Assembly: GCF_003315205.1 (NCBI RefSeq)
Contig: NZ_QNRR01000001.1
Coordinates: 992,001 to 1,056,000, forward strand
From: Roseimicrobium gellanilyticum
GTDB taxonomy: Bacteria; Verrucomicrobiota; Verrucomicrobiia; Verrucomicrobiales; Verrucomicrobiaceae
DNA: 64,000 nucleotides
Direction: 5' to 3'
The notes under the pieces were generated by a model that saw nothing but the letters and a program-made list of their open reading frames with translations, was not told where the DNA came from and made no database searches. Positions 4,403-15,703 of the stretch are shown here, piece after piece (the stretch's first letter is position 1; each line of letters begins with the position of its first letter). A program made the translations under genes and the position numbers.

Positions 4403-5254
4403 TCAATGTACCACCTGCCGATGCTTCGCGAACAGTCCGTACTTTGGACTGAAGATGTACGCTACAGCGAACATGACGCCGAGCACCAGTACGATGGTGG
4501 AGCCGATGTTCCAGCTCAGCACATAGGAGAGGAAGAAGGCGCCGGTCGCGCCGAGGGCGCCGAGGATGCCCCCACCCAGGAAGATGGTGCGTGTATTGTC
4601 CGAGCACAGATACACGGTGGCTCCAGGAGTGACCATGAGGCCAAGGCTCAGAATGCATCCTACAGCCTGCAAGGAGGAAAGCAGCATGAGGATCATGACG
4701 CCGAAGAGGGCGTAATTCAACGCGCGCACGGGTACGCCGAGACTGGCGGCGACATTGGGCTCGAAGAGATAGATCAGCAGGGGGCGCTGAAGAACGGTGA
4801 GTGTGAGTACTGCCGTCACGGCAATGCCGAAGGCAATCCACAAGTCTGCGTCAGACATGCCGGTGATACTGCCGAAGAGCCAGTCGCTGAGCTTCTGTGT
4901 CATGTTGAGATTGGTCAGCAAGATGTAGCCCCCGGCGAAGGCCGAGGTGTACAGGATGGCCATGGAGGTATCCTGATCCAGCCGCGAGGTGCGTGACATG
5001 AAGATAGACCCCAGCCCGATGAACAGGGCTGCGACGATGGCGCCGGCAAGAGCGGTCCACTGTGTGAGTCCCATGAACAGCACCGCAAGCGCGATGCCCG
5101 GCAGCAGGCCATGCGACAGTGTGCCCATCTTCAGGGCAGACTTGCGCATCACCACAAATCCACTCATGAACCCATTGGCAAAGCCAAAGAGCACGCATGC
5201 CATCAGCCCGCGCTGGGCCGGGGTTTCGCTCAGGTATTCCCAGAAATTGCTCAT
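4403..5254 (-). CDS. Zinc/manganese ABC transporter permease (ZnuB/TroC family)
   Basis: A 283-residue polytopic membrane protein of the ABC-3 family, with about eight hydrophobic segments and the usual family length. The segment CILSLGLMVTPGATVYLC matches the conserved late-helix region of ZnuB, MntB and TroC permeases, which form the inner-membrane channel for a divalent metal delivered by the periplasmic binding protein. The start overlaps the stop of the ATPase gene by 4 bp (ATGA, 5251-5254), so the two are translationally coupled. It is the last clear gene of the leftward operon. Zinc is favoured over manganese by context (COG0523 GTPase, His-rich partners), not by residues in this subunit. 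Confidence 0.9.
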   Translation of the reverse strand: MSNFWEYLSETPAQRGLMACVLFGFANGFMSGFVVMRKSALKMGTLSHGLLPGIALAVLFMGLTQWTALAGAIVAALFIGLGSIFMSRTSRLDQDTSMAILYTSAFAGGYILLTNLNMTQKLSDWLFGSITGMSDADLWIAFGIAVTAVLTLTVLQRPLLIYLFEPNVAASLGVPVRALNYALFGVMILMLLSSLQAVGCILSLGLMVTPGATVYLCSDNTRTIFLGGGILGALGATGAFFLSYVLSWNIGSTIVLVLGVMFAVAYIFSPKYGLFAKHRQVVH

Positions 5255-6039
5255 GATGCGTAGGCGGTCTTGATGGTTTCCTCGGTGAAGACTTCCTTCA
5301 CGGGGCCGAAGGCGACCTGCTGGCGCTTCAGCAGCAGCACGTCGTCGAAGATCGATGGCACGGTCTGCAGGTCATGATGGCTCGCGATGAGCAGGCGGCC
5401 TTCCTTGGTGAGCTCGCGGAAGAGTTGTGAAAGGGCTTCCTGTGCAGGCTTGTCGAGACCGGTGAAGGGTTCATCCAGGAGGAGCACGTGTGCTTCTTGA
5501 GCGAGCGCCCGCGCGATGAAGGTGCGCTGTTGCTGGCCACCGCTCAGGGCGCTGATCTGGCGCTTCTGCAGGTCGAGCAGGTTCATGGCGGTGAGGGCGC
5601 GCTCCACGATTTCTTCATCGTGCTTCGAGTAGCGCTTCCACAAGCCGAGGTTCGGATAGCGGCCCATTTCCACCAGTCCGCGCACGGTGATGGGGAAGTT
5701 CCAATCCACATCACCACGCTGCGGCAGGTAGGCGATCTCATGGCTGCTGCTGACGAGCGCCTTGCCCCTCCAGAGAATCTTGCCTGCGTCGGGACGCACT
5801 AATCCTGCGAGTGACTTGAGCAAGGTACTCTTGCCCGCGCCATTCGGCCCGATCAGCGCCATGCTGCGGCTGCACTCCGTACGGAAGTTGATGCCCTGCA
5901 GCGCCTGGATGTCGCGATAGCTCACGGCGAGGTTCGAGACCTCCAGCCGGTGATGGTGTGCGGTGCTGTGCGTGCTGTGGCCCCAGCACACATGGTCATG
6001 CGTGTGGTCGTGACTGTGACTGTGGGTGTGAGCGTGCAT
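5251..6039 (-). CDS. Metal ABC transporter ATPase with His-rich N-terminus
   Basis: A 262-residue cytoplasmic ATPase. Walker A GPNGAGKS is at 64-71, LSGGQ at 165-169 and Walker B LLLDEP at 186-191. The Q-loop region YLPQRGDVDWNFP is the form typical of the SitB/MntB/TroB/ZnuC group of divalent-metal importers. An unusual 30-residue extension precedes the fold, with 13 histidines in alternating His-Ser/Thr/Asp order, then Cys18 and a final HHH. Such tails bind Zn or Ni in other proteins, so a metal-sensing or storage role is plausible but inferred. The gene sits between a small anchored protein (11 bp upstream) and the permease (4-bp overlap). Metal identity (Zn versus Mn) is not decided by the ATPase. 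Confidence 0.9.
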   Translation of the reverse strand: MHAHTHSHSHDHTHDHVCWGHSTHSTAHHHRLEVSNLAVSYRDIQALQGINFRTECSRSMALIGPNGAGKSTLLKSLAGLVRPDAGKILWRGKALVSSSHEIAYLPQRGDVDWNFPITVRGLVEMGRYPNLGLWKRYSKHDEEIVERALTAMNLLDLQKRQISALSGGQQQRTFIARALAQEAHVLLLDEPFTGLDKPAQEALSQLFRELTKEGRLLIASHHDLQTVPSIFDDVLLLKRQQVAFGPVKEVFTEETIKTAYAS

Positions 6040-6050
6040 CGTGGGAGCGA

Positions 6051-6497
6051 CTACCAGAGGAAGAGGTAGGACGTGGGTGAGAGCTTGTTGCCCTTGGACC
6101 AGTTCGTGAGGCTGCGATTTTGCTTTTCGCTGGGTTCCAGATCGAGAGTGAGGGCAGTATTCGGCGTGCCTTCAGGCCAGGTGGCGGAGGCGATGATTTC
6201 GAGTCCTTCCGCAGGAATGGCGAGTTCCGCCTCGAAGGAAATGCTGGTTGCCGTGGGTTTCTGCTGCTCCGGAGAGAGAAGTTCCTGACCCTGAACCTTG
6301 ATGGAGAGAGAAGCTGGAACGTGCGCCAATCGCACGCGGATGTAGGTGGGCACTTTCTCCTCCGCCTTGTTCTGCGCCTTGTCTTGAACAACCGGCTTCT
6401 TGTCCACCCGCGCAAAGGTGAGGTGTGAAAGCGGGATGGAGAGCAGAGCGAACGCAATGATGAATGCGATCACGTGAAGGGGAGGAAAGCCGCGCAC
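6051..6497 (-). CDS. Small membrane-anchored protein inside the metal ABC operon
   Basis: I do not recognise a family. The 148-residue product, from a GTG start at 6497, has one N-terminal hydrophobic segment (residues about 8-28). A lysine-rich stretch follows, then a soluble domain of beta-like pattern (YIRVRLAHVPASLSIKVQG; SISFEAELAIPAEGLEIIA). A single-span anchor with a periplasmic domain is the simplest reading. It lies between the binding protein and the ATPase, 11 bp from the latter, so it is very likely co-transcribed with the importer. It lacks His or Cys clusters. It could be an accessory or stabilising subunit; no function can be assigned. Confidence 0.65.
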   Translation of the reverse strand: MRGFPPLHVIAFIIAFALLSIPLSHLTFARVDKKPVVQDKAQNKAEEKVPTYIRVRLAHVPASLSIKVQGQELLSPEQQKPTATSISFEAELAIPAEGLEIIASATWPEGTPNTALTLDLEPSEKQNRSLTNWSKGNKLSPTSYLFLW

Positions 6498-6633: not shown

Positions 6634-7536
6634 TCAGGGCTTCAGGGCCTCCACAATGGCGGTGACGTTGTGCTTCAGCATCGCTTCGAAGGTATGGGCG
6701 CTGGGGGAGGTGCCATCTGCCACCAGAGGCTTGCCCATCTTCACGCCGGTCTCGCGCACGATTTCTGTGAGGACCTTGGGATTTATCTGATCATCCGCAA
6801 ACACGGCGCGGATGTGATGCTCTTTGATGAGCTTGATCGTCTCGGACACGTACTTCAGTGATGCTTCATCCTCACGCGAGATGCCGAGCAGCGGGATGGT
6901 CTTGAAGCCATACTCCTTGCAGAAGTAGCCGAAGGACGCGTGCGAAGTCACCAGCTTGCGATCGCTTCGGGGGATGGCCGCGATCTGTTCCTGCGCCCAG
7001 CTCTTGAGTTCCTCGAGTTTTTCACTCGCGGCATCGGCGTTTGCCTTGTACGTGGCGGCGTTGCCGGGGTCAGCCTTGCTCATGGAGTCTGCCATCACGC
7101 GTGCGGCGCGACGCATGTTGTCCGCGCTGTGCCACCAGTGGGGATCAATGCCGCCTGCGGTGTGGGCAGGGCAGCACATGAAGACTTCACTGCCCGCCTC
7201 GATCTTGATGCTGGGGATGGTGCGTCCCACTTCCACGACTTCTGCGGTACCGGCGAAGGTATCGGCGACCTTGGGAAGATAGGATTCCAGTTTCTTGCCA
7301 CTGGCGAAGATGATCTTCACGCCCTTCAGTGCGGCGAGATCCTTGGTGGTGGGTTCGAAGTGGTGGGCATCGCCTCCCGGTTTGAGGAGGTCAACCACGT
7401 CCACCTTGGCTCCACCCACCTGGCGGGCGAGGTCGCCGAGCAGCGGGTGAAGGGCGGCCACCTTGAGTTGGGCAGGAGCGCTGGCAGTGAACATCACGGC
7501 CAGCAGAGCAGCGGCGAGTTTGAGCGGGGTTTTCAT
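6634..7536 (-). CDS. Periplasmic metal-binding protein of ABC transporter (ZnuA-like)
   Basis: Three hundred residues from the ATG at 7536; a TTG 8 codons upstream is discounted because the signal peptide starts cleanly at MKTPLKLAAALLAVMF. It belongs to the cluster A-I binding proteins (ZnuA, MntC, TroA). Candidate metal ligands sit at the usual places: the HHFEP motif (His58/59), DPHWWH (His133), TSHASFGYF (His199) and the FADD acidic pair (248-249). It lacks the long His-rich loop found in many ZnuA proteins; a CCPAH segment (121-125) takes a similar position. In the periplasm it would hand a divalent metal to the permease at 4403-5254. It follows the outer-membrane barrel by 75 bp in the same operon. 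Confidence 0.9.
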   Translation of the reverse strand: MKTPLKLAAALLAVMFTASAPAQLKVAALHPLLGDLARQVGGAKVDVVDLLKPGGDAHHFEPTTKDLAALKGVKIIFASGKKLESYLPKVADTFAGTAEVVEVGRTIPSIKIEAGSEVFMCCPAHTAGGIDPHWWHSADNMRRAARVMADSMSKADPGNAATYKANADAASEKLEELKSWAQEQIAAIPRSDRKLVTSHASFGYFCKEYGFKTIPLLGISREDEASLKYVSETIKLIKEHHIRAVFADDQINPKVLTEIVRETGVKMGKPLVADGTSPSAHTFEAMLKHNVTAIVEALKP

Positions 7537-7611
7537 GGCGGCAATTGGGATGGGGAACAATGAAGCAGAATAAAAGGCTACGCGTGAAACGCGGCAAGTG
7601 GTTCGGAGGTG

Positions 7612-8910
7612 TCAGCGGACTTCGGGGCCGCCCCAGTTGAAGCCGAATTGAGCCCAGACGCTGTGCTCGTCCCCGAAGTCACTGGAGTGGTCATAGTTGT
7701 ACTGGGTGCGCAGGTAGAGGGTGCGCTGGGGATTGATGTAGTAGGTGACGGAGGGACTCACGCGGAAACGCTCATCCAGCCCGGCGTCAGCGACACCCTC
7801 GACATATTCACTGCGGAGGCCGAACTCCAGGCCGTTGTCGAGGCCATAGGCAAGGGCGCTGTAGATGCCAAACTCGGTGAAGCTGCCGGACTCGGTGTGG
7901 TGTTCTTCTTCATGCTCGTGCTCCTCATGCTCGGCATGGTCATGATGTTCCTCTTCGTGCTCTTCCTCATGCTCGTGATGGTGCTCGGCGCTGGCATCGA
8001 AATGACGCAACAGACCTTCCGTGCGCCAGCGGAAGTAGCTTCCACCGGCCTCGTATCCATTCTCGCGCCACTGGTACTCGACATGCAGGCCGTACACCTG
8101 GGAGGTCTTGGAGAATTCATTGTCTCCCCACGCGCCGCTCGCGCCAAAGCGGAACTGGTGGAAGTCGTTGTAGTCCCAGTTGTTTGTCCAGTTCGCTACC
8201 ACCACGGTGTCATTGAAGAGGGCGCCTTCTGCTTCGAAGGAGGTTTCCTCGTGTTCGTGACCTTCATGGTGGTGTTCATGCTCGGGTACCACGCCCACGC
8301 TCACGCTGATGAGGGAGGTCCAGCTCACCGGCAGCGTCCAGGTGACTTCGCCGCCGATGGTGTAGAGACCGTCATCTCCGAGGAAGCGACCGTTCACCAG
8401 ATTGTTGTCCACAAAGTCCCACCCATGGGTGTGTGTCTGGTTGTGAAAACCGAAGCGATTGAGATACCGGCCACCGCGGACTTCGAAGCCGCCGGGGATG
8501 TTCTTGATTTTGCCGAACCACTCTTCGAACTCGCCATCCCAGTCATGGGTGAGCGCGTCTTGGAAGAGGTGGTAGGTGCCGTAGGCTTCGAACCACTCGG
8601 TGGGACGCAGCGAGGCGCCGAATTCAAAACCCTGGATGGTCCAGCCATCGCTCACCGGGTCGTGGTGCCCAGCGCCGAAATGCTCGACGTCATCCGCAGT
8701 GGTGCCGCCATAGACGCTCTGGAAGTGGAGGTGTGGGAAAAGGACACCGCCGAGGCTGACGTTTTCACCGGTGAGCCAGTTGGGCTCGGGAGCATGAGCG
8801 CGGCCCTCAGAGGCAGCCGGGAGCGCCGTGCCTGCATAGACAGAGGGAATGAGGCATACTGAGCAAGCAGCCGCGGTGAAGGAAGAAAGGATGCAGGGAG
8901 AAAGTTTCAT
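7612..8910 (-). CDS. His/Glu-rich outer-membrane beta-barrel of the metal operon
   Basis: Four hundred and thirty-two residues from ATG 8910, chosen over upstream in-frame codons because a signal peptide begins there. The body alternates aromatic and polar residues in amphipathic strands and ends ...WAQFGFNWGGPEVR, close to but not exactly the usual terminal-aromatic barrel ending. No TonB-plug domain is visible, so it is porin-like. Two predicted loops are extremely rich in His and Glu: about residues 208-222 (EHEHHHEGHEHEE) and about 306-340, where 13 of 32 residues are His. These probably bind zinc or similar metals at the surface. It is the first gene of the leftward operon and faces the three-dyad region. 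I infer passage or capture of zinc across the outer membrane; the family itself is not one I can name. Confidence 0.8.
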   Translation of the reverse strand: MKLSPCILSSFTAAACSVCLIPSVYAGTALPAASEGRAHAPEPNWLTGENVSLGGVLFPHLHFQSVYGGTTADDVEHFGAGHHDPVSDGWTIQGFEFGASLRPTEWFEAYGTYHLFQDALTHDWDGEFEEWFGKIKNIPGGFEVRGGRYLNRFGFHNQTHTHGWDFVDNNLVNGRFLGDDGLYTIGGEVTWTLPVSWTSLISVSVGVVPEHEHHHEGHEHEETSFEAEGALFNDTVVVANWTNNWDYNDFHQFRFGASGAWGDNEFSKTSQVYGLHVEYQWRENGYEAGGSYFRWRTEGLLRHFDASAEHHHEHEEEHEEEHHDHAEHEEHEHEEEHHTESGSFTEFGIYSALAYGLDNGLEFGLRSEYVEGVADAGLDERFRVSPSVTYYINPQRTLYLRTQYNYDHSSDFGDEHSVWAQFGFNWGGPEVR

Positions 8911-8994
8911 GCAACGTGACGAGAGGAAATTGATGTAGGTGCCTGAGGGAGTGATGTCATCAAATGTAAGAGTGGTGCATTCGTCGTCCACTTA

Positions 8995-9017
8995 CTTTTG
9001 CAAAAATGTTGCGTTAA
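8995..9017. promoter_or_regulatory. Operator-like dyad 1 of the metal island
   Basis: The first of three related 23-bp sites between the divergent metal operons. Right half TTGCGTTAA is identical to the consensus; the left half CTTTTGCAA keeps 5 of 9 positions. A 5-bp spacer separates the halves. It lies about 85 bp upstream of the barrel gene start and so could control the leftward promoter. Confidence 0.65.
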
Positions 9018-9068
9018 TTTTGATTTAAGAGGTGCGCGGGATTGTTCAGGATGCTTGAAAAAACTCCG

Positions 9069-9091
9069 TTAACGCAAAAAACTTGCATTAA
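9069..9091. promoter_or_regulatory. Operator-like dyad 2 of the metal island (best copy)
   Basis: TTAACGCAA-N5-TTGCATTAA is an inverted repeat with one mismatch in 9-bp arms. It ends 3 bp before TTGACG (9095-9100), a possible -35 element for the rightward operon. A Fur-family regulator such as Zur is the natural candidate by context, but the motif itself does not prove which protein binds. Confidence 0.75.
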
Positions 9092-9126
9092 ATGTTGACG
9101 AGACGGTTCGCTGTTCTAAAGCTCGG

Positions 9127-9149
9127 CAAATGCAAAACAGTTGCGTTAA
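9127..9149. promoter_or_regulatory. Operator-like dyad 3, overlapping the pseudopilin start codon
   Basis: CAAATGCAA-N5-TTGCGTTAA. The right half is perfect and the left keeps 6 of 9 positions. The ATG at 9130 lies inside the site, so bound repressor would cover the start of the rightward reading frame; the transcript may be leaderless or very short-leadered. Confidence 0.65.
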
Positions 9150-9852
9150 TGCACGGGCATTCTCCCTTCTCGAGTTACTGGTAGCGCTTACGGTGTGTGC
9201 TGTAGTCGCGACGCTAGTGTTCGTCATCGGCAAGGAGATGGTGACGAAAGCGCGTCAGGCCAAGTGTGCGTCCAACTTGCGCCAGATCGGCATTGCCCTC
9301 ATTGCCTACACCCAAGACCACCAGGGAGAATTCCCGCTCACGTCGCACAGCCTTGATCCGGCGACTGCTGATCAGGCATGGATTTTTGCGCTGTCTGAAT
9401 ATCTCGGGGACGTGGATGAAGTACGCATCTGTCCCGCGGATCCGAAAGGAAAGGAGCGTTTGCGGGAACATGGCACAAGCTACCTCCTCAATAGCTACCT
9501 GACCGTTCCGCAGATCGGGCCATTCGGAGAGAATCTTGGGGGGTACACGAACATCAACTTCGTGCCTGAGCCGCAGACTACGCCGATAGCATTTCCCATC
9601 AACTTCAAGCGCGGGGTGGGCAGGATGAATGATCACACCCACTCGGACACGTGGGACACCTGGGCTGCGGTGAAAAATGACATCCAGCCTGACGCGTTTT
9701 GCGGGGCATTGAGGGACGAGAACGGTCTCTCGGGCTCAGCCAACTACCTGTTTGTCGATGGTCACGTCGAAAACATACAGGCCGCCGTGGTGCACGGCTG
9801 GATCACCAGCGGGCACAACTTCGCGGACCCGGAATCCAAGCTCGAACCCTGA
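9130..9852 (+). CDS. Pseudopilin-like (prepilin N-terminal) protein in metal operon
   Basis: A 240-residue protein beginning MQNSCVNARA|FSLLELLVALT, a type IV prepilin-like leader with Phe11 at +1 and Glu15 at +5. Position -1 is Ala rather than the usual Gly, which prepilin peptidases sometimes accept. A hydrophobic helix follows, then RQAKCASNLRQIGIALIAYT, the pattern of the large planctomycete/verrucomicrobial family of type II secretion-like proteins. The C-terminal region ends YLFVDGHVENIQ, matching the DG motif of that family. It is first in the rightward operon, 14 bp before the PEP-CTERM gene, and its ATG sits within operator dyad 3. Such proteins are usually scattered and of unknown role; here metal control suggests a surface part in metal acquisition (inference). 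Confidence 0.8.
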   Translation: MQNSCVNARAFSLLELLVALTVCAVVATLVFVIGKEMVTKARQAKCASNLRQIGIALIAYTQDHQGEFPLTSHSLDPATADQAWIFALSEYLGDVDEVRICPADPKGKERLREHGTSYLLNSYLTVPQIGPFGENLGGYTNINFVPEPQTTPIAFPINFKRGVGRMNDHTHSDTWDTWAAVKNDIQPDAFCGALRDENGLSGSANYLFVDGHVENIQAAVVHGWITSGHNFADPESKLEP

Positions 9853-9866
9853 TCCCCACATACACG

Positions 9867-10712
9867 ATGCCGCCACGATTTTTTCCCGCGCGATCACAAT
9901 CCGCCCTTGTCGCCGCCTTTGTGTTTTTGGTCCCCGCCATGGTCCTTTCCCAGGTCACGATTCTCGGCCCCGGGCATATGGACATCGATTTCAATGTGAA
10001 TGCTGGGGGGGAGTGGGCCCTTTCTCTCAGTCACGATGTGCAGGGGGAATTTCCCATGGATACGAACAGCATCCTCTACGGAAGCGGGGCCTTGATGCCC
10101 GACGGCATACGCACGGTGCGACCCTCAGGCAGCCAGTGGAATTTCCTCGGAGTCAGCAGCGGCGAGTCGATCTGGGTTTTTCCTCAAGTGCAGGGAGCTG
10201 CGCCAAATGCAGTGTGGCCTGGATTGAGCACCGAGCAGACGTCCTCATCGATATTGGGCACCTGGGACCCCGAGACGCCCGTCGTTGGATCCGGGAAGTG
10301 GATGGAATTGTCCCTCGTTGGCATGGCCTACTATGGCACGGCAACCGTGCATGAGTTCTCGATGTGGACGACCGGGACCTTCGGCACGCCGAATGTGTGG
10401 ATGTCCACGAAGGACGGCATCTCAGGATTGGATGCTTTTCCCATGCTGCCAGGCGGCCATTCTCACATGAACTGGGGCTTCACCAGTGAAGGGGTCTACG
10501 ATCTGACCTTCCAACTCCGCACGTATCTTGCCAATGGCGCTCTTGCAGAGAGCGATCCTGTGACGGTGCGCTTTGGCATCAATGCCATTGCAGTCCCCGA
10601 GCCGGGGACGATCGCCCTCCTGGTCATGGGAGGGGTGCTGACAATCTTGCGGCGTGAAAGGTCCGTCGCCGCGCGAAATCTGAAACTTTCAGGACCTCAA
10701 AGAACATCATGA
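9867..10712 (+). CDS. PEP-CTERM surface protein resembling choice-of-anchor M / P_ac_wall_RPT proteins
   Basis: Two hundred and eighty-one residues from ATG 9867 (the open frame extends upstream, but a signal peptide starts here: [17 protein letters not shown]). The C-terminus has the exosortase sorting signal: VPEP at 243-246, a hydrophobic segment, then LRRER. The mature domain begins [19 protein letters not shown] and contains [20 protein letters not shown] (196-215). In my reading these match the choice-of-anchor M domain and the actinobacterial repeat (TIGR03769), known for occurring beside metal ABC transporters. Conserved histidines (37, 56, 162, 198, 200) could bind metal. The gene overlaps the COG0523 gene by 4 bp (ATGA). 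An outer-surface metal receptor is the inferred role. The family assignment is from memory of motifs and needs a profile search. Confidence 0.72.
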
Positions 10713-11914
10713 GCAACGTGCTGCCCGTAACAGTGCTGTCTGGATTCCTTGGAGCCGGTAAAACCACCCTGCTGAATCACATCCTGAACAATCGAGAGAA
10801 TCGTCGTGTGGCGGTGATCGTGAATGATATGTCGGAGGTCAACGTGGATGCCGCACTGGTGAAGAGTGGGAATGCCGGCTTCGCCCGCGCGGAGGAGAAA
10901 ATGGTGGAGATGTCCAACGGCTGCATTTGCTGCACGCTCCGTGAAGACTTGCTCATCGAAGTCGGGAAACTTGCTCGCGAGGGACGCTTTGACCATCTTG
11001 TAATCGAGAGTACAGGCGTCTCCGAACCCATGCCTGTGGCGGAGACATTCTCCTTTCGTGATGAAGCGGGGCAATGCCTCAATGACCTCGCACGACTGGA
11101 CACCATGGTGACGGTGGTGGACGCGAAAAACTTCCTGCGTGACTTCCACAGCGCGCAACGCCTCAAGGAACGGAAGCTGGCCGTGGGCAAGGAGGATGAG
11201 CGGAACGTGGTGGACCTCCTGGTGGATCAGATTGAGTTCGCCAATGTGATTCTCATCAACAAGGCAGACACTGTCGATGCTGATGAAATGCGGGAGGTAC
11301 GTGCCCTCATAGGTGCGGTGAATGCGAAAGCACGTGTCTGGGAGACAACGCACGGAGAGGTGCCACTGGGCGCCGTGATGGGCACCGGACTCTACTCCGA
11401 GAGTGAGGCTGAGCAGAGCGAGGGATGGCTGGACAGCCTGACGGAGCACACGCCGGAAACCATCGAATACGGCATCAGCAGTTTTGTCTACCGGGCCAGG
11501 AGACCGTTTCATCCCCGGCGCTTCAGCGAGTGGTGCCGGGACCATTGGGCAGGTGTGCTCCGGGCGAAGGGCATGTTCTGGCTGGCGTCACGCATGGACT
11601 TTGCCGGCCTGGTTCAGCAGGCCGGTGTCTTGCGCACTACCAGTTGCATGGGCATCTGGTGGGCTGCGGTGCACCGCGAGGACTGGCCTCAGTCTGCAGA
11701 AGCGCAAAAGGATATCCTGTCGCACTGGGAATCGCCTTGGGGCGATCGGCGGCAGGAGATCGTGGTCATTGGCAAGGACATGGATGAAGCTGCCTTGAGA
11801 AAGGAGTTCGACGCCTGCCTCTTGACGGAGGCAGAGATGCAAAAAGGTCCGAATGGATGGAGTCGTCTGGCGGACCCTTTTCCGAAGTGGCGCGAGGATC
11901 CCGCGGAGGAATGA
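10709..11914 (+). CDS. COG0523 (CobW/ZigA-type) GTP-binding metallochaperone
   Basis: A 401-residue cytosolic G3E-family GTPase. The Walker A motif GFLGAGKT is at 12-19, and the family metal motif C-x-C-C is CICC at 72-75. ESTGVSEP follows as the switch region, and INKAD supplies the guanine-specificity motif. The C-terminal domain contains the segment FHPRRFSEW, as in ZigA/YciC-like zinc chaperones, which are typically made during zinc starvation and pass zinc to client enzymes. The start codon overlaps the PEP-CTERM stop (ATGA), so translation is coupled. Its place downstream of the dyads is the main reason to read the island as zinc-related. Cobalt or iron specificity cannot be excluded from sequence alone. 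Confidence 0.92.
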
Positions 11915-12007: not shown

Positions 12008-12772
12008 CTACTGGCAACACAGGAAGTCTTCGAGCTCACTCACGCTGGTGTTGCCGAGGACGTTTTCGGCGGTGCCGGTGCAAAGCACCTGGCCTACGCC
12101 GTCGCGCACGCCGACGAAGGCGAGTTCATCGGCGACTTTGCGGGCCTGGCGGAGGTTGTGAGTCACGACCACCAGAGTGTGATGTTCCTTGAGACGAAGC
12201 ATCAGTTCCTCAATCGCCTCGGTGCTCTTGGGATCGAGGGCACTGGTGGGCTCGTCCATGAGGACGACTTCCGGCTTGCTCGCGAGGGTGCGGGCGAGGC
12301 AGAGGCGCTGCTGCTGGCCTACGGAGAGGCGAAGCGCAGGCTGCTTGAGGCGGTCCTTCACCTCATTCCACAGGGCGGCTTCACGCAGGGCTCGCTCGGC
12401 GGCTTCGGGCCACTCGCGGCGGGGAATCTCGCCGAGGTGCTTCACACCGAAGATGACGTTTTGGTAGATGCTCTTCGGGAAGACCACAGGCTGCTGGAAG
12501 AGAATGCCGATGCGCGCGCGCAAGGCATCTGGATCCGTGCCGCTGCCATACACGGGCTTGCCGTGGAAAAGAACCTGGCCTGTGACGCGGAGATTTGGGG
12601 TGAGCTCGACGAGACGATTGATGGACTTGAGCAGGGTGCTCTTTCCTGCGCCAGAAGGACCGATGAATCCAAAGACCTTCTTCTCGGGTATGGACAGGTT
12701 GGCCTCGCGCACCAGCGTGCGTGTGCCCGCGGTGACGGTGAGCTTTTGGGTCTGCAGGATGGGTTCAGCCAT
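12008..12772 (-). CDS. pstB: Phosphate ABC transporter ATP-binding protein
   Basis: A 254-residue cytoplasmic ATPase that energises phosphate import. Walker A GPSGAGKS is at 38-45, and SINRLVELTP just after it is a PstB-type feature. LMDEPTSALDP is Walker B with the D-loop. The signature reads LSVGQQQR instead of LSGGQQQR, a Gly to Val change in a normally invariant motif. This is odd, although LSVGQ does occur in some transporters. It overlaps pstA by 8 bp (12765-12772) and is last in the pstSCAB order. No phoU or two-component genes are in the window. Confidence 0.9.
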   Translation of the reverse strand: MAEPILQTQKLTVTAGTRTLVREANLSIPEKKVFGFIGPSGAGKSTLLKSINRLVELTPNLRVTGQVLFHGKPVYGSGTDPDALRARIGILFQQPVVFPKSIYQNVIFGVKHLGEIPRREWPEAAERALREAALWNEVKDRLKQPALRLSVGQQQRLCLARTLASKPEVVLMDEPTSALDPKSTEAIEELMLRLKEHHTLVVVTHNLRQARKVADELAFVGVRDGVGQVLCTGTAENVLGNTSVSELEDFLCCQ

Positions 12773-13619
12773 GATGCGCTTCTTCGTGAATCTTCAGGCG
12801 GGCGGGCAGGGCGATGAGGCTCAAGGTGAATACCAGGCCGAGCATCACCAGGGCGGTACCCCAGATTTTTTCTGCCACACCGGGGTCGAAGGAGTCCTGC
12901 ACCAGAATGAAGATGTGATAGGGAAGGCTGAGCACGGGGCTTTCCTTGATGCCCTTTGGGAATGATGCGCCGGCGAAGATGGTCGCCGTGAACATGATCG
13001 GAGCGATCTCACCCGCGATGCGCGCCAGGCCCAGCAGTGAACCGGTGATGATGCCGCTCAGCGTCTGCGGCAGGATGACGGACCAGATGATCTGCGACTG
13101 GCGCATGCCCAGGCCGGAGGCAGCTTCCACATATTTGCTGGGCAAAGTGGCCATGCGCTCCATGAGGGCCACCGTAACTGTCGGCAGCATGATGATGGCC
13201 AGCAGAAGACCACCGCTGAGCCACGACTTGCCCCAGCCGAAGTAGTTCACAAACACGATGAAGCCGAAGATGCCGCACACGATGGAAGGCATGCCGTTGA
13301 GCACGTACAGCATGGTTTCCAGCGCGCGTTTGCGTTTGCCATCGCGGAGATAGACACCGTGCAGAAGAGCCAGTGAAACTGCCACGGGCAAGGTGGCAAC
13401 AAGGGCGGTCAGCAGCAGAATGCCGGTGCCGATGATGTTGAAGAAGATGCCACCGCTGGCGCCGACGAGTTTGATCTGCTCCGTGAAGAAGTTCCACGAG
13501 ATGGCGGGCAATCCGCGACGAGCGATAGCCCACACGAGCCAACCAAGAATGCCGCATGCCAGCAACGCGCACAGCGCGGTGATTCCACGGAAGAGATGAT
13601 GCACCAGCTTACGACGCAT
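12765..13619 (-). CDS. pstA: Phosphate ABC transporter permease PstA
   Basis: A 284-residue inner-membrane protein with about six hydrophobic segments. The permease (EAA-like) region MERMATLPSKYVEAASGLGM and the segment ARIAGEIAPIMFTA are typical of PstA, which pairs with PstC to form the phosphate channel. Length is normal. It overlaps both neighbours (8 bp with pstB, 11 bp with pstC), so the three are one translationally coupled unit. PstA rather than PstC is assigned from the conserved GEIAPIMFTA segment and the gene order. Confidence 0.9.
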   Translation of the reverse strand: MRRKLVHHLFRGITALCALLACGILGWLVWAIARRGLPAISWNFFTEQIKLVGASGGIFFNIIGTGILLLTALVATLPVAVSLALLHGVYLRDGKRKRALETMLYVLNGMPSIVCGIFGFIVFVNYFGWGKSWLSGGLLLAIIMLPTVTVALMERMATLPSKYVEAASGLGMRQSQIIWSVILPQTLSGIITGSLLGLARIAGEIAPIMFTATIFAGASFPKGIKESPVLSLPYHIFILVQDSFDPGVAEKIWGTALVMLGLVFTLSLIALPARLKIHEEAHHG

Positions 13620-14508
13620 GGCGGCTGCGGGAGAAGAATTGGAGGGAGGCGCTGGCGAGCGTGATGCCCGCTACCATGAGCATGAGAATCAAGGCGAGGC
13701 CGCAGATGGCGCCCCAGTGGATGGGATCGCCGTAGGCGATGTTGGTTTCAGAGCTGGCGAGCTTCGTGGTGATGGTCTGGCCGGACTCGATGAGGGGATT
13801 GATGGAGAGTAACTTTTCCGGCCATTGGTTATCCTGGCGCCCCACGACGAGGAACACGGCAATGGCTTCACCCAAGGCGCGGCCGAGGCCGAGCAGCAGC
13901 GCCGCAAGCAATCCGCGGGCGCTCTGTGGCAGGCTGACATGCAGGACCACTTCCGTGGAATTGAGACCCAGGCCCCGTGCTGCGGTGCGTTGCGCGGCCG
14001 GTACGCTGCGTAGAGCGTCATCCGCCAGCGTCATCACGGTGGGGAGGATCATCACGGCGAGCAGCACGGCGCCGGTGAGCAAGGTGTCACCACTGAGCGG
14101 GTCGAAAGGTGTGAGCAGATCGTAGATCCAGTTCCGCAGGAAGAGTACTCCCAGCAGCCCGTAGACCACCGCAGGCACGCCTGCGAGGAGCTCAATGATG
14201 ATCTTCACTGCGAGGCGCAGGCGCGCCGGGAGGAATTCTGATGCAAAGACTGCCGCTCCAATACCCACCGGGCCAGCCAGCAGCAGAGCGGTGAAGGACA
14301 CCAGTACCGTGCCCAGGATCATGGGGGCCGCGCCAAACTCATGTGTGCGCATGAACCACTTGGTTCCCGTCAGAAAGCTCCATCCTTCGTGCTTCCAAAC
14401 CGGGATGCTCTGCACAATGAGAAGCACCAGCATGGCCACCATGATCCCGGCCGCGACGAGCGAGAAAAAGAAGGTCGAAATTTTGGTGAAGCTCCAGCGA
14501 CTGACCAT
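13609..14508 (-). CDS. pstC: Phosphate ABC transporter permease PstC
   Basis: A 299-residue membrane permease with about six spans. It shows GVPAVVYGLLGVLFL and the ALGEAIAVFLVVG segment, both typical of PstC. LADDALRSVPAAQRTAARGLG forms the cytoplasmic coupling loop that contacts PstB. The N-terminal region WSFLTGTKWF matches the large first periplasmic loop of the family. It starts at ATG 14508, 123 bp after pstS and beyond a stem-loop (14551-14584), and overlaps pstA by 11 bp. Confidence 0.9.
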   Translation of the reverse strand: MVSRWSFTKISTFFFSLVAAGIMVAMLVLLIVQSIPVWKHEGWSFLTGTKWFMRTHEFGAAPMILGTVLVSFTALLLAGPVGIGAAVFASEFLPARLRLAVKIIIELLAGVPAVVYGLLGVLFLRNWIYDLLTPFDPLSGDTLLTGAVLLAVMILPTVMTLADDALRSVPAAQRTAARGLGLNSTEVVLHVSLPQSARGLLAALLLGLGRALGEAIAVFLVVGRQDNQWPEKLLSINPLIESGQTITTKLASSETNIAYGDPIHWGAICGLALILMLMVAGITLASASLQFFSRSRHAS

Positions 14509-14550
14509 TTACTGAACTGAAAGTGTGAACGATGCGTATATGCGCAAGAA

Positions 14551-14584
14551 CGCCGCCATCGCAAGTTTCAACGCGATGACGGCG
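14551..14584 (-). terminator. Intercistronic stem-loop between pstS and pstC
   Basis: CGCCGCCATCGC and GCGATGACGGCG pair with one mismatch over 12 bp around a 10-base loop. There is no strong T-tract on the minus strand. As at the metal operon, a hairpin directly after the binding-protein gene would favour high binding-protein mRNA over the membrane subunits. Confidence 0.5.
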
Positions 14585-14631
14585 TGAGATATATCACCGG
14601 ATTGTCCGTAAACGACGGAGAGATGGGCGGG

Positions 14632-15474
14632 CTACTTCAGCTCGGAGAGCTTGAGGTAGCCGTGTTTCTTCACCAAGTCCTGACCGCGGTCGCTGAGCAT
14701 GAAGTCCACGAAGGTCTTCGTGTCACCGGTAGGTTCGCCATTGGTGAGGAGGAAGAGGGGACGGCTCAGGGGGTAGGAGCGGTTGGCAATGTTTTCGTTG
14801 GCAGGGGAGATCTCCTTGCCGTCCTCAGTCTTGATGCTCAGGGCGAAGACCGTCTTGCCATCAGCCCAGGAGGAGGAAAGCTGGCTCAGCGCGCCCTTGG
14901 TGGAGGCCACCTTGTTGCGGGTTTCCTCATTGCCGCCCACTTCAGGGAAGCTCACCTGTGGGGCCTTCTTGGGGCTGCCGTAGACCCAGTGCACAAAGAC
15001 TTCCCAGGTGCCGCGTCCGGGCTCCTTGTTGAAGAAGGCGATGCGCTTGTCCGGACCGCCAATCTGCTTCCAGTTCTTGATCTTGCCTTCGTAGATGTCG
15101 GCCGCCTGCTGCTTGGTGATGGACTTCACGCCACCCTCCCACACGTCTGCGGAGACAATGAGGGCCACGGCATCCTCACCCACCTGGATTTCCTTGAAGG
15201 TCACCTTGGGGAACTTGGCGCGTTCTTCATCACTCACGTGCTTGGAGATCATGCCGATTTGCACCAGGCCTTCCCCCAGCATGGAGATCCCGCCGGCGCT
15301 GCCGCCTTGCGTATCGATCTGGATGTCCATTTTCTTCTCCGAGCGCAGAATCTCGGAAGCCTCAGCGGCGGGAAGATTCACCGTGGTGGAACCATTGATC
15401 TTCAGGGTATCCGCTTGAACCGAGAGGAGGGGGGTTCCGATAAGCGCCAGCAATGCGAAAAGATGGACCTTCAT
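14632..15474 (-). CDS. pstS: Phosphate-binding protein of ABC transporter
   Basis: Two hundred and eighty residues from ATG 15474 (an ATG three codons upstream is also possible). The signal peptide is MKVHLFALLALIGTPLLSVQA. The mature protein starts LKINGSTTVNLPAAEA, the phosphate-binding loop of PstS-like proteins, and continues with the periplasmic binding fold (DTQGGSAGG; FNKEPGRGTWEVF, the second anion-binding segment). It captures phosphate in the periplasm for PstCAB. It faces the divergent porin gene at 15704 across a 229-bp region with A/T-rich palindromes (ATATGCATAT and TTTGCGCAAA near 15510-15540). No convincing Pho box was identified. Confidence 0.9.
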   Translation of the reverse strand: MKVHLFALLALIGTPLLSVQADTLKINGSTTVNLPAAEASEILRSEKKMDIQIDTQGGSAGGISMLGEGLVQIGMISKHVSDEERAKFPKVTFKEIQVGEDAVALIVSADVWEGGVKSITKQQAADIYEGKIKNWKQIGGPDKRIAFFNKEPGRGTWEVFVHWVYGSPKKAPQVSFPEVGGNEETRNKVASTKGALSQLSSSWADGKTVFALSIKTEDGKEISPANENIANRSYPLSRPLFLLTNGEPTGDTKTFVDFMLSDRGQDLVKKHGYLKLSELK

Positions 15475-15703
15475 GCATGGCATCTACGAACGTCGCCACC
15501 CACTGCAAGCAGAAATATGCATATTTGCGCAAATGGGACATTGATCTGCTGGAGCGGCGGTGATTGCATGTGCCGTCGCCGCCGCGAGCAGCCTGACAAG
15601 ATTGCTGCGTTCATCTGCAAGATGGGATCACAGCCTTGAAGGTTTCTCTGCGCATTGGTGGCATTTCGCCGACACACACAACCAACCGACAGATAATCAA
15701 CCT

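Follow-up and report, generated by a model that had tools for sequence, protein, structure and literature searches.

A probable Zur box between divergent zinc operons of Roseimicrobium gellanilyticum and its occurrence in Verrucomicrobiales

Introduction

Which regulator controls a pair of zinc operons that diverge from a single intergenic region? In the verrucomicrobium Roseimicrobium gellanilyticum, a stretch of 64,000 nucleotides (contig NZ_QNRR01000001.1, positions 992,001 to 1,056,000; the whole stretch is called the window below) carries three copies of a 23-bp dyad, TTAAYGCAA-N5-TTGCRTTAA, between a minus-strand porin-znuA-znuC-znuB operon and a plus-strand operon of a pilin-like gene, a choice-of-anchor M gene and zigA (Table 1). 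The original prediction, made from the letters of the window, was that a Fur-family repressor (Zur or similar) controls both operons. The analysis described here supports that reading from sequence: the genes behind the box make up what would be a fitting Zur regulon, and a Fur-family protein with an apparent Zur-type ligand set is encoded in the genome. The most fitting reading of the motif is as a Zur box belonging to the order Verrucomicrobiales, and the dyads in the window are very probably boxes through which a zinc-sensing Fur-family repressor, most likely the protein here called FurC, would shut both operons.

Results and Discussion

The dyads and the genes on either side

The three dyads are present where the original prediction had placed them, and copy 2 is, as it held, a 9-bp inverted repeat with one mismatch. 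Counted against the consensus, copies 1, 2 and 3 have 3, 0 and 2 mismatches, respectively. Absent from that prediction is the overlap of copy 3 with the plus-strand operon: the ATG of its first gene lies inside the copy.

Table 1. Dyads, flanking genes and possible promoter, in window positions.
Feature	Position	Strand	Remarks
Zur-box copy 1, CTTTTGCAAaaatgTTGCGTTAA	8995..9017		adjoins promoter region of porin-znuA-znuC-znuB (minus strand); 20.8 bits
Zur-box copy 2, TTAACGCAAaaaacTTGCATTAA	9069..9091		central, best; 34.9 bits
Zur-box copy 3, CAAATGCAAaacagTTGCGTTAA	9127..9149		ATG of pilin-like gene (9130-9132) inside; 28.0 bits
Possible core promoter, TTGACG-N16-TAAAGC	9095..9122	+	between copies 2 and 3, by eye
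Type IV pilin-like protein (N_methyl, DUF1559)	9130..9852	+	leader MQNSCVNARA/FSLLELLV; family matches
Choice-of-anchor M / TIGR03769 protein, PEP-CTERM	9867..10712	+	start by eye; listed ORF from 9699
ZigA zinc metallochaperone GTPase (COG0523)	10709..11914	+	NF038288, 612 bits (cut-off 600)
His-rich porin-like outer-membrane protein (by appearance)	7612..8910	-	start by signal peptide, by eye; ORF to 8991
ZnuA zinc-binding protein	6634..7560	-	PF01297, 229.9 bits
148-aa protein of unknown function	6051..6497	-	without family match
ZnuC-type ATPase	5251..6039	-	family matches
ZnuB-type permease (ABC-3)	4403..5254	-	PF00950, 143.2 bits

By their coordinates the genes of the plus-strand operon are tightly packed, and zigA, the third of them, has no site of its own. 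On the other strand, the porin-like protein had no match in Pfam, NCBIfam or PHROGs; homologs 43-65% identical to it lie beside the motif in other genomes. Homologs of the 148-aa protein (34-48%) are likewise found between znuA and znuC at five loci of other genomes (L037, L044, L080, L082, L083). Beyond zigA, and converging on it, the minus strand at 12008-15483 carries what by the appearance of its ORFs is a PstB-PstA-PstC-PstS-like phosphate ABC transporter set.

A consensus promoter scan of 8900-9250 called no promoter, and the -35/-10 reading in Table 1 is a weak one, made by eye. A TTGA(C/T)-like element between the paired sites of pilin-like promoters was seen in the same way in the window and at five other loci (L084, L046, L082, L083, L126).

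Departure from chance

Are three such dyads more than an accident of composition? A scoring matrix built from 46 sites in other genomes of the family, with the three window sites left out, ranks the window copies first (scores in Table 1), the next place in the window reaching 4.0 bits; in 8 Mb of simulated sequence, scores of at least 20 are expected 0.008 times per 64 kb. A search of the 7.93-Mb genome at up to three mismatches returned the three copies and one weak further place (C3:266349), so that matches do not fall at random over the genome; the reversed control pattern gave two matches under the same conditions. A model search, with the model built from the 46 sites plus the three window copies, found only the three copies among the 150 of 1162 first-look candidates that were scored; the best E was 0.009 and that of the weakest copy 1.05, which taken by itself would not be convincing.

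A palindromic dyad in three copies close together might also be a mobile or palindromic repeat that came to lie here by accident and regulates nothing. This explanation was rejected, and its probability is close to nil: the search of the 7.93-Mb genome gave three copies and one weak match, and the dyad stands before orthologous zinc genes in many genera.

Distribution among relatives

At up to two mismatches, a cut that under-calls sites (as at L260 and L262), the motif is found in 32 of 68 genomes of the family and not in the other 36. In the order Verrucomicrobiales, 123 of the 239 genomes carry it and 21 match the reversed control. Over the phylum, at up to one mismatch, 16 of 387 genomes carry it, eight from the order, five from other orders of the class and three from other classes (G287, G349, G310). 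The last figure equals the three found with the reversed control, and the loci in other classes have no zinc-locus homolog nearby; occurrence beyond the class was read as chance.

Homologs of the window's zinc locus lie within 1.5 kb of 57 of 73 sites at loci of the family and of 20 of 30 sites in the rest of the order (all from one other family, f2). Outside the order the figures are 5 of 7 sites within the class and 0 of 4 beyond it, and none of 21 control loci scored. The homologs counted are those of seven window proteins, ZnuC matches below 45% identity having been dropped as generic ATPases, and the loci with sites were chosen for carrying the motif. With a laxer count that admits FurC and weak ZnuC matches, 3 of the 21 controls score, two through ZnuC-like ATPases and one through FurC.

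A count without such selection starts from ZigA orthologs of the order, picked by protein alone and without regard to the motif: 54 of 70 have a site of at least 16 bits within about 350 bases upstream, leaving 16 without a strong site, and the reversed matrix gives 1 of 70 (with a 12-bit cut, 55 of 70 against 5 of 70). Eight of 78 rows went unused: six of them, all but one without the start or most of the front of the gene, and two (L263, L264) that have no site of at least 12 bits and would make the count 54 of 72. The matrix was trained on sites of the family, some from ZigA promoters; among ZigA loci of other families (L301-L334), 24 of 34 pass. Neither the motif nor ZigA was found in G061, the sole other genome of the genus searched. 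Together with the ZnuA, porin and pilin-like/anchor-M genes that follow the motif in other genera and families, these counts bear out the expectation that it should precede orthologous genes, and a palindromic site kept across relatives before zinc-uptake and zinc-sparing genes is one of the marks of a Zur regulon.

At sites without a window homolog, the genes directly behind the box include znuA at L239 (Pfam), a FeoB-like permease at L039 (Pfam; by resemblance also at L062, L067 and L077), MerC at L247 (Pfam; L243 is alike by eye) and, at L040 and similarly L042, an Fe/Mn superoxide dismutase gene (Pfam) divergent from one resembling, by eye, a TonB receptor. ZnuABC, COG0523 proteins, TonB receptors and SodA are listed as Zur targets elsewhere in passages of PMC6103462, and known Zur boxes overlap the promoters of such genes (passages of PMC6103462 and PMC8000910). 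Two loci carry His-rich, secreted-looking proteins behind the box, with motifs such as LHLHTHTG (L059 at about 600, minus strand; L067 at 14611, plus strand); the L059 protein has no Pfam match, and both are possibly akin to ZepA-like zinc exoproteins. Behind the box in the window (9130-10712) and at L046, L082, L083, L084, L122, L126 and L127, a pilin-like gene (DUF1559) and, next after it, a choice-of-anchor M gene form a recurring pair. We know of no function for this pair, and a search of the open-licence literature for choice-of-anchor M gave no paper on zinc, to judge by titles; its position suggests a surface structure made in zinc starvation.

Form of the box

Among 113 distinct sites, G6 and C7 are kept at 98-99% (arm values are inflated, the seeds having been picked at up to two mismatches), and the centre is weak, with T at 56% beside the central base. 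The unit is thus more aptly described as 11-1-11, loosely constrained at its centre, than as two 9-mers and a free 5-bp spacer. The classic Fur-family frame is 7-1-7, TGATAAT-N-ATTATCA; set on it, the core here is TGCAAnT-N-AnTTGCA, which has C at -5 and little constraint near the centre, and to judge from the letters it looks like an altered Fur-family box.

The best-known Fur-family members bind AT-only boxes, and the TGCAA half-site is unlike these, as it might be if the dyads were the operator of a non-Fur zinc or manganese regulator of the AdcR/MarR, ArsR or MerR type. We consider this very improbable: the motif is associated with FurC (see below), and its symmetry, its 23-bp length and a purine that is almost invariant on either strand, six bases from the centre, fit RNNNYxxxRNNNY, the rule for a single dimer of E. 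coli Zur in passages of PMC4219657. The E. coli box itself, GAAATGTTATA-N-TATAACATTTC in the same source, differs from TTAAYGCAA-N5-TTGCRTTAA. The Zur boxes of Enterobacteria, Bacillales, Actinobacteria and Cyanobacteria, as described in passages of PMC6103462 and PMC8000910, are likewise palindromic and stand before zinc genes. Nearer at hand, passages of PMC10957091 report one putative Zur site in L. yonseiensis, a relative in the PVC superphylum, spotted by its authors by eye and likened by them to the Clostridia Zur site; those passages give neither a matrix nor wider conservation for it, whereas the present motif has both.

Paired sites and start codons

Two Zur boxes per promoter are described for S. 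coelicolor znuA and B. subtilis yciC (passages of PMC6103462 and PMC8000910), and pairs are common here also, with 63 distinct site pairs within 300 bp around 130 seed sites. After merging those of equal spacing and more than 50% identity outside the sites, 46 clusters are spaced 24-80 bp, 11 of them at exactly 36 bp and 8 at exactly 26 bp. The spacings are periodic at about 10.5-11 bp, with 10.5 and 11.0 fitting equally well; the Rayleigh p is about 2e-5 and the maximum-count p 6e-5; both values are rough, as the test was picked after the spacings had been seen and clusters of one genus are not independent. The half-turn pattern does not extend to most porin promoters, whose sites are 32-34 bp apart, or to some ZigA promoters, at 31 bp. 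A search of the open-licence literature for site spacing and for the literal site sequence found nothing relevant.

At the pilin-like genes, taken from loci chosen for the motif, the start codon falls inside the downstream site in 6 of 8 genomes, each time in one and the same register (NNN ATG CAA..., with the leader MQxxC). One of the six is from another order of the class; G385 and G208 lack the arrangement. A weak pilin-like match outside the eight (L045 in G012, 37%) has no site. Because the arm AATGCAA yields an ATG in most sites, the conserved feature is the register and not the ATG itself. The distance to the upstream site is 58-59 bp in these promoters (54 bp in G532), and a TTGA-type element lies between the two. 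If TTGACG-N16-TAAAGC were the promoter in the window, transcription would begin on the ATG or beside it and the mRNA would be leaderless, which is a guess, as the promoter scan does not call the element.

A candidate repressor

The genome encodes three Fur-family proteins, FurA, FurB and FurC. FurA and FurB lack the Cys/His ligand set, and their best NCBIfam matches, all under cut-off, are to Irr/PerR/Fur and PerR models. FurC (C4:26067-26639; 191 aa from the start chosen) has a His-rich N-terminus and a FUR domain (PF01475, 56.5 bits against a cut-off of 23.1); its score against the NCBIfam Zur model is below cut-off (NF008646, 25.8 bits against 167). An AF2 model of a FurC ortholog (pLDDT 88) matches structures of Fur, PerR and Zur with Z up to 15.0, a comparison in which Zur was not separable from the other two. 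The Cys4 structural zinc site (C146, C149, C187, C190) is kept in 95-96% of 81 rows, four fragments included; in 44 rows chosen from 80 FurC orthologs, three of these Cys are invariant and the last is present in at least 90%, some rows ending earlier.

Where would such a protein sense zinc? By eye on the alignment, FurC has no canonical inter-domain site 2 (Cys, two His, carboxylate), the references being C79 and H87 of ScZur and the ligands of EcZur (the latter in passages of PMC4219657): the strand leading up to CxxC has no Cys, and three positions ahead of CxxC, where ScZur has His87, stands Tyr or Phe. The candidate ligands are His140, Asp142, Cys159 and His179, kept in 77 of the 81 rows (the other four are fragments of 22-38 residues); all 44 chosen rows have His-x-Asp ahead of CxxC, Cys-Pro behind it and the HELEFFG His. 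Passages of PMC9337993 describe, for Zur of Synechococcus WH8102 (SynZur; PDB 7ne9), a sole sensing site in the dimerisation domain, an N2OS set of D77, H79, C95 and H115, contrasted there with other Zurs and reported as conserved within cyanobacteria. FurC is like SynZur in having H, D, C and H at matching positions when CxxC, CP and HxLEFFG are taken as landmarks; HMMER aligns its Cys and last His to C95 and H115, and the first pair, where the alignment has a gap, is placed by its distance from CxxC. It is unlike SynZur in that His and Asp are swapped, the loop before CxxC is two residues longer and, in this genome, the N-terminus is His-rich. The 7ne9 sequence is the best PDB match of the FurC domain at L152 (Verrucomicrobium) and the fourth for the R. 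gellanilyticum protein.

FurC is near-universal in the order and absent from one genus, g12 (0 of 32 genomes: 19 are listed as lacking a FurC match, and 13 do not appear among the FurC-positive genomes). Among 181 genomes at least 90% complete, taken at any contamination where the search tool's own tally gives 176, the motif occurs in 92 of 141 with FurC, 1 of 8 without it outside g12, and 2 of 32 in g12, FurC being taken as absent if the best E was above 1e-20 and G039, with a divergent paralog only, counted as FurC-bearing. Outside g12 the association has a Fisher p of 0.005 and partly follows phylogeny; the two matches in g12 are without zinc-locus homologs. Counted against it are the 49 of 141 FurC-bearing genomes without a site at up to two mismatches, and G073, which has three motif matches and no strong FurC match.

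Might another Fur-family protein read the boxes, namely a divergent FurC paralog where there is one, or FurA or FurB in this genome? Such paralogs, near zinc operons, lie within a few hundred bases of sites at L058, L073, L084, L232 and L233, and farther off at L067 (within 0.9 kb) and, at a distance of some 7 kb, at L251. A site stands about 110-140 bp upstream of the paralog match in G228 and G234, and at L232 and L233 the paralog has one just upstream. The FurC orthologs themselves are not near the motif: 0 of 80 of their loci have a site at up to three mismatches, and FurC is therefore not autoregulated via the box. Where present, the paralogs could be the true readers. In the five that were read, the Cys and first His are gone, whereas the Asp is kept in all five and the last His in three; these paralogs might sense something else or act without zinc. 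This genome has no divergent paralog, yet it has a perfect site, so that a paralog was dropped as its Zur and FurC is preferred as the repressor here; FurA and FurB lack the ligands, and the motif is mostly missing from FurC-less genomes. A reader other than FurC is thus unlikely, though the strongest of the alternatives.

At L084 a variant dyad with a 4-bp centre, CTAATGCAA-ACAA-TTGCAATAA (5828-5849), lies upstream of the divergent paralog, and may be an autoregulatory box with altered spacing.

Proposed mechanism and implications

The dyads, their conserved placement ahead of zinc genes, the FurC ligand set and the tendency of motif and FurC to occur together lead us to infer how the locus may work, including binding by FurC, a response to zinc, repression and the positions of the promoters. 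FurC would sense zinc at a single site (His140, Asp142, Cys159, His179) in its dimerisation domain, as cyanobacterial Zur does. In zinc-replete cells a zinc-loaded dimer would sit on each 23-bp box: copies 2 and 3 would bracket the pilin-like/anchor-M/zigA promoter, copy 3 also covering the start codon and first codons, and copies 1 and 2 would flank the start region of the porin-znuA-znuC-znuB operon, so that one intergenic patch could close both operons. In zinc shortage Zur would leave, and ZnuABC uptake, outer-membrane passage, the surface proteins and the ZigA chaperone would be made.

A more far-reaching picture, which we offer as tentative and rather doubtful as a whole, is that Zur of Verrucomicrobiales is non-canonical, sensing in the dimerisation domain only; that it has its own TGCAA-type box, bound by phased tandem dimers (26, 36 and 58-59 bp, near half-integral turns); that at the pilin-like operon, on a leaderless start codon, the operator is at the same time coding sequence; and that under zinc starvation this operon yields a surface apparatus made up of a pilin-like protein and an anchored one.

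Zur boxes and Zur regulons are known; what is new is a lineage-specific box together with a candidate regulator of unusual Zur type. The order gains a usable Zur box and a candidate regulator, where searches of the open-licence literature gave one site, found by eye, and zinc regulons become readable in more than 100 genomes. The ligand pattern of FurC suggests use of the cyanobacterial kind of sensing site in a second phylum as well; the pilin-like/anchor-M pair and the porin-like protein become candidate zinc-starvation proteins.
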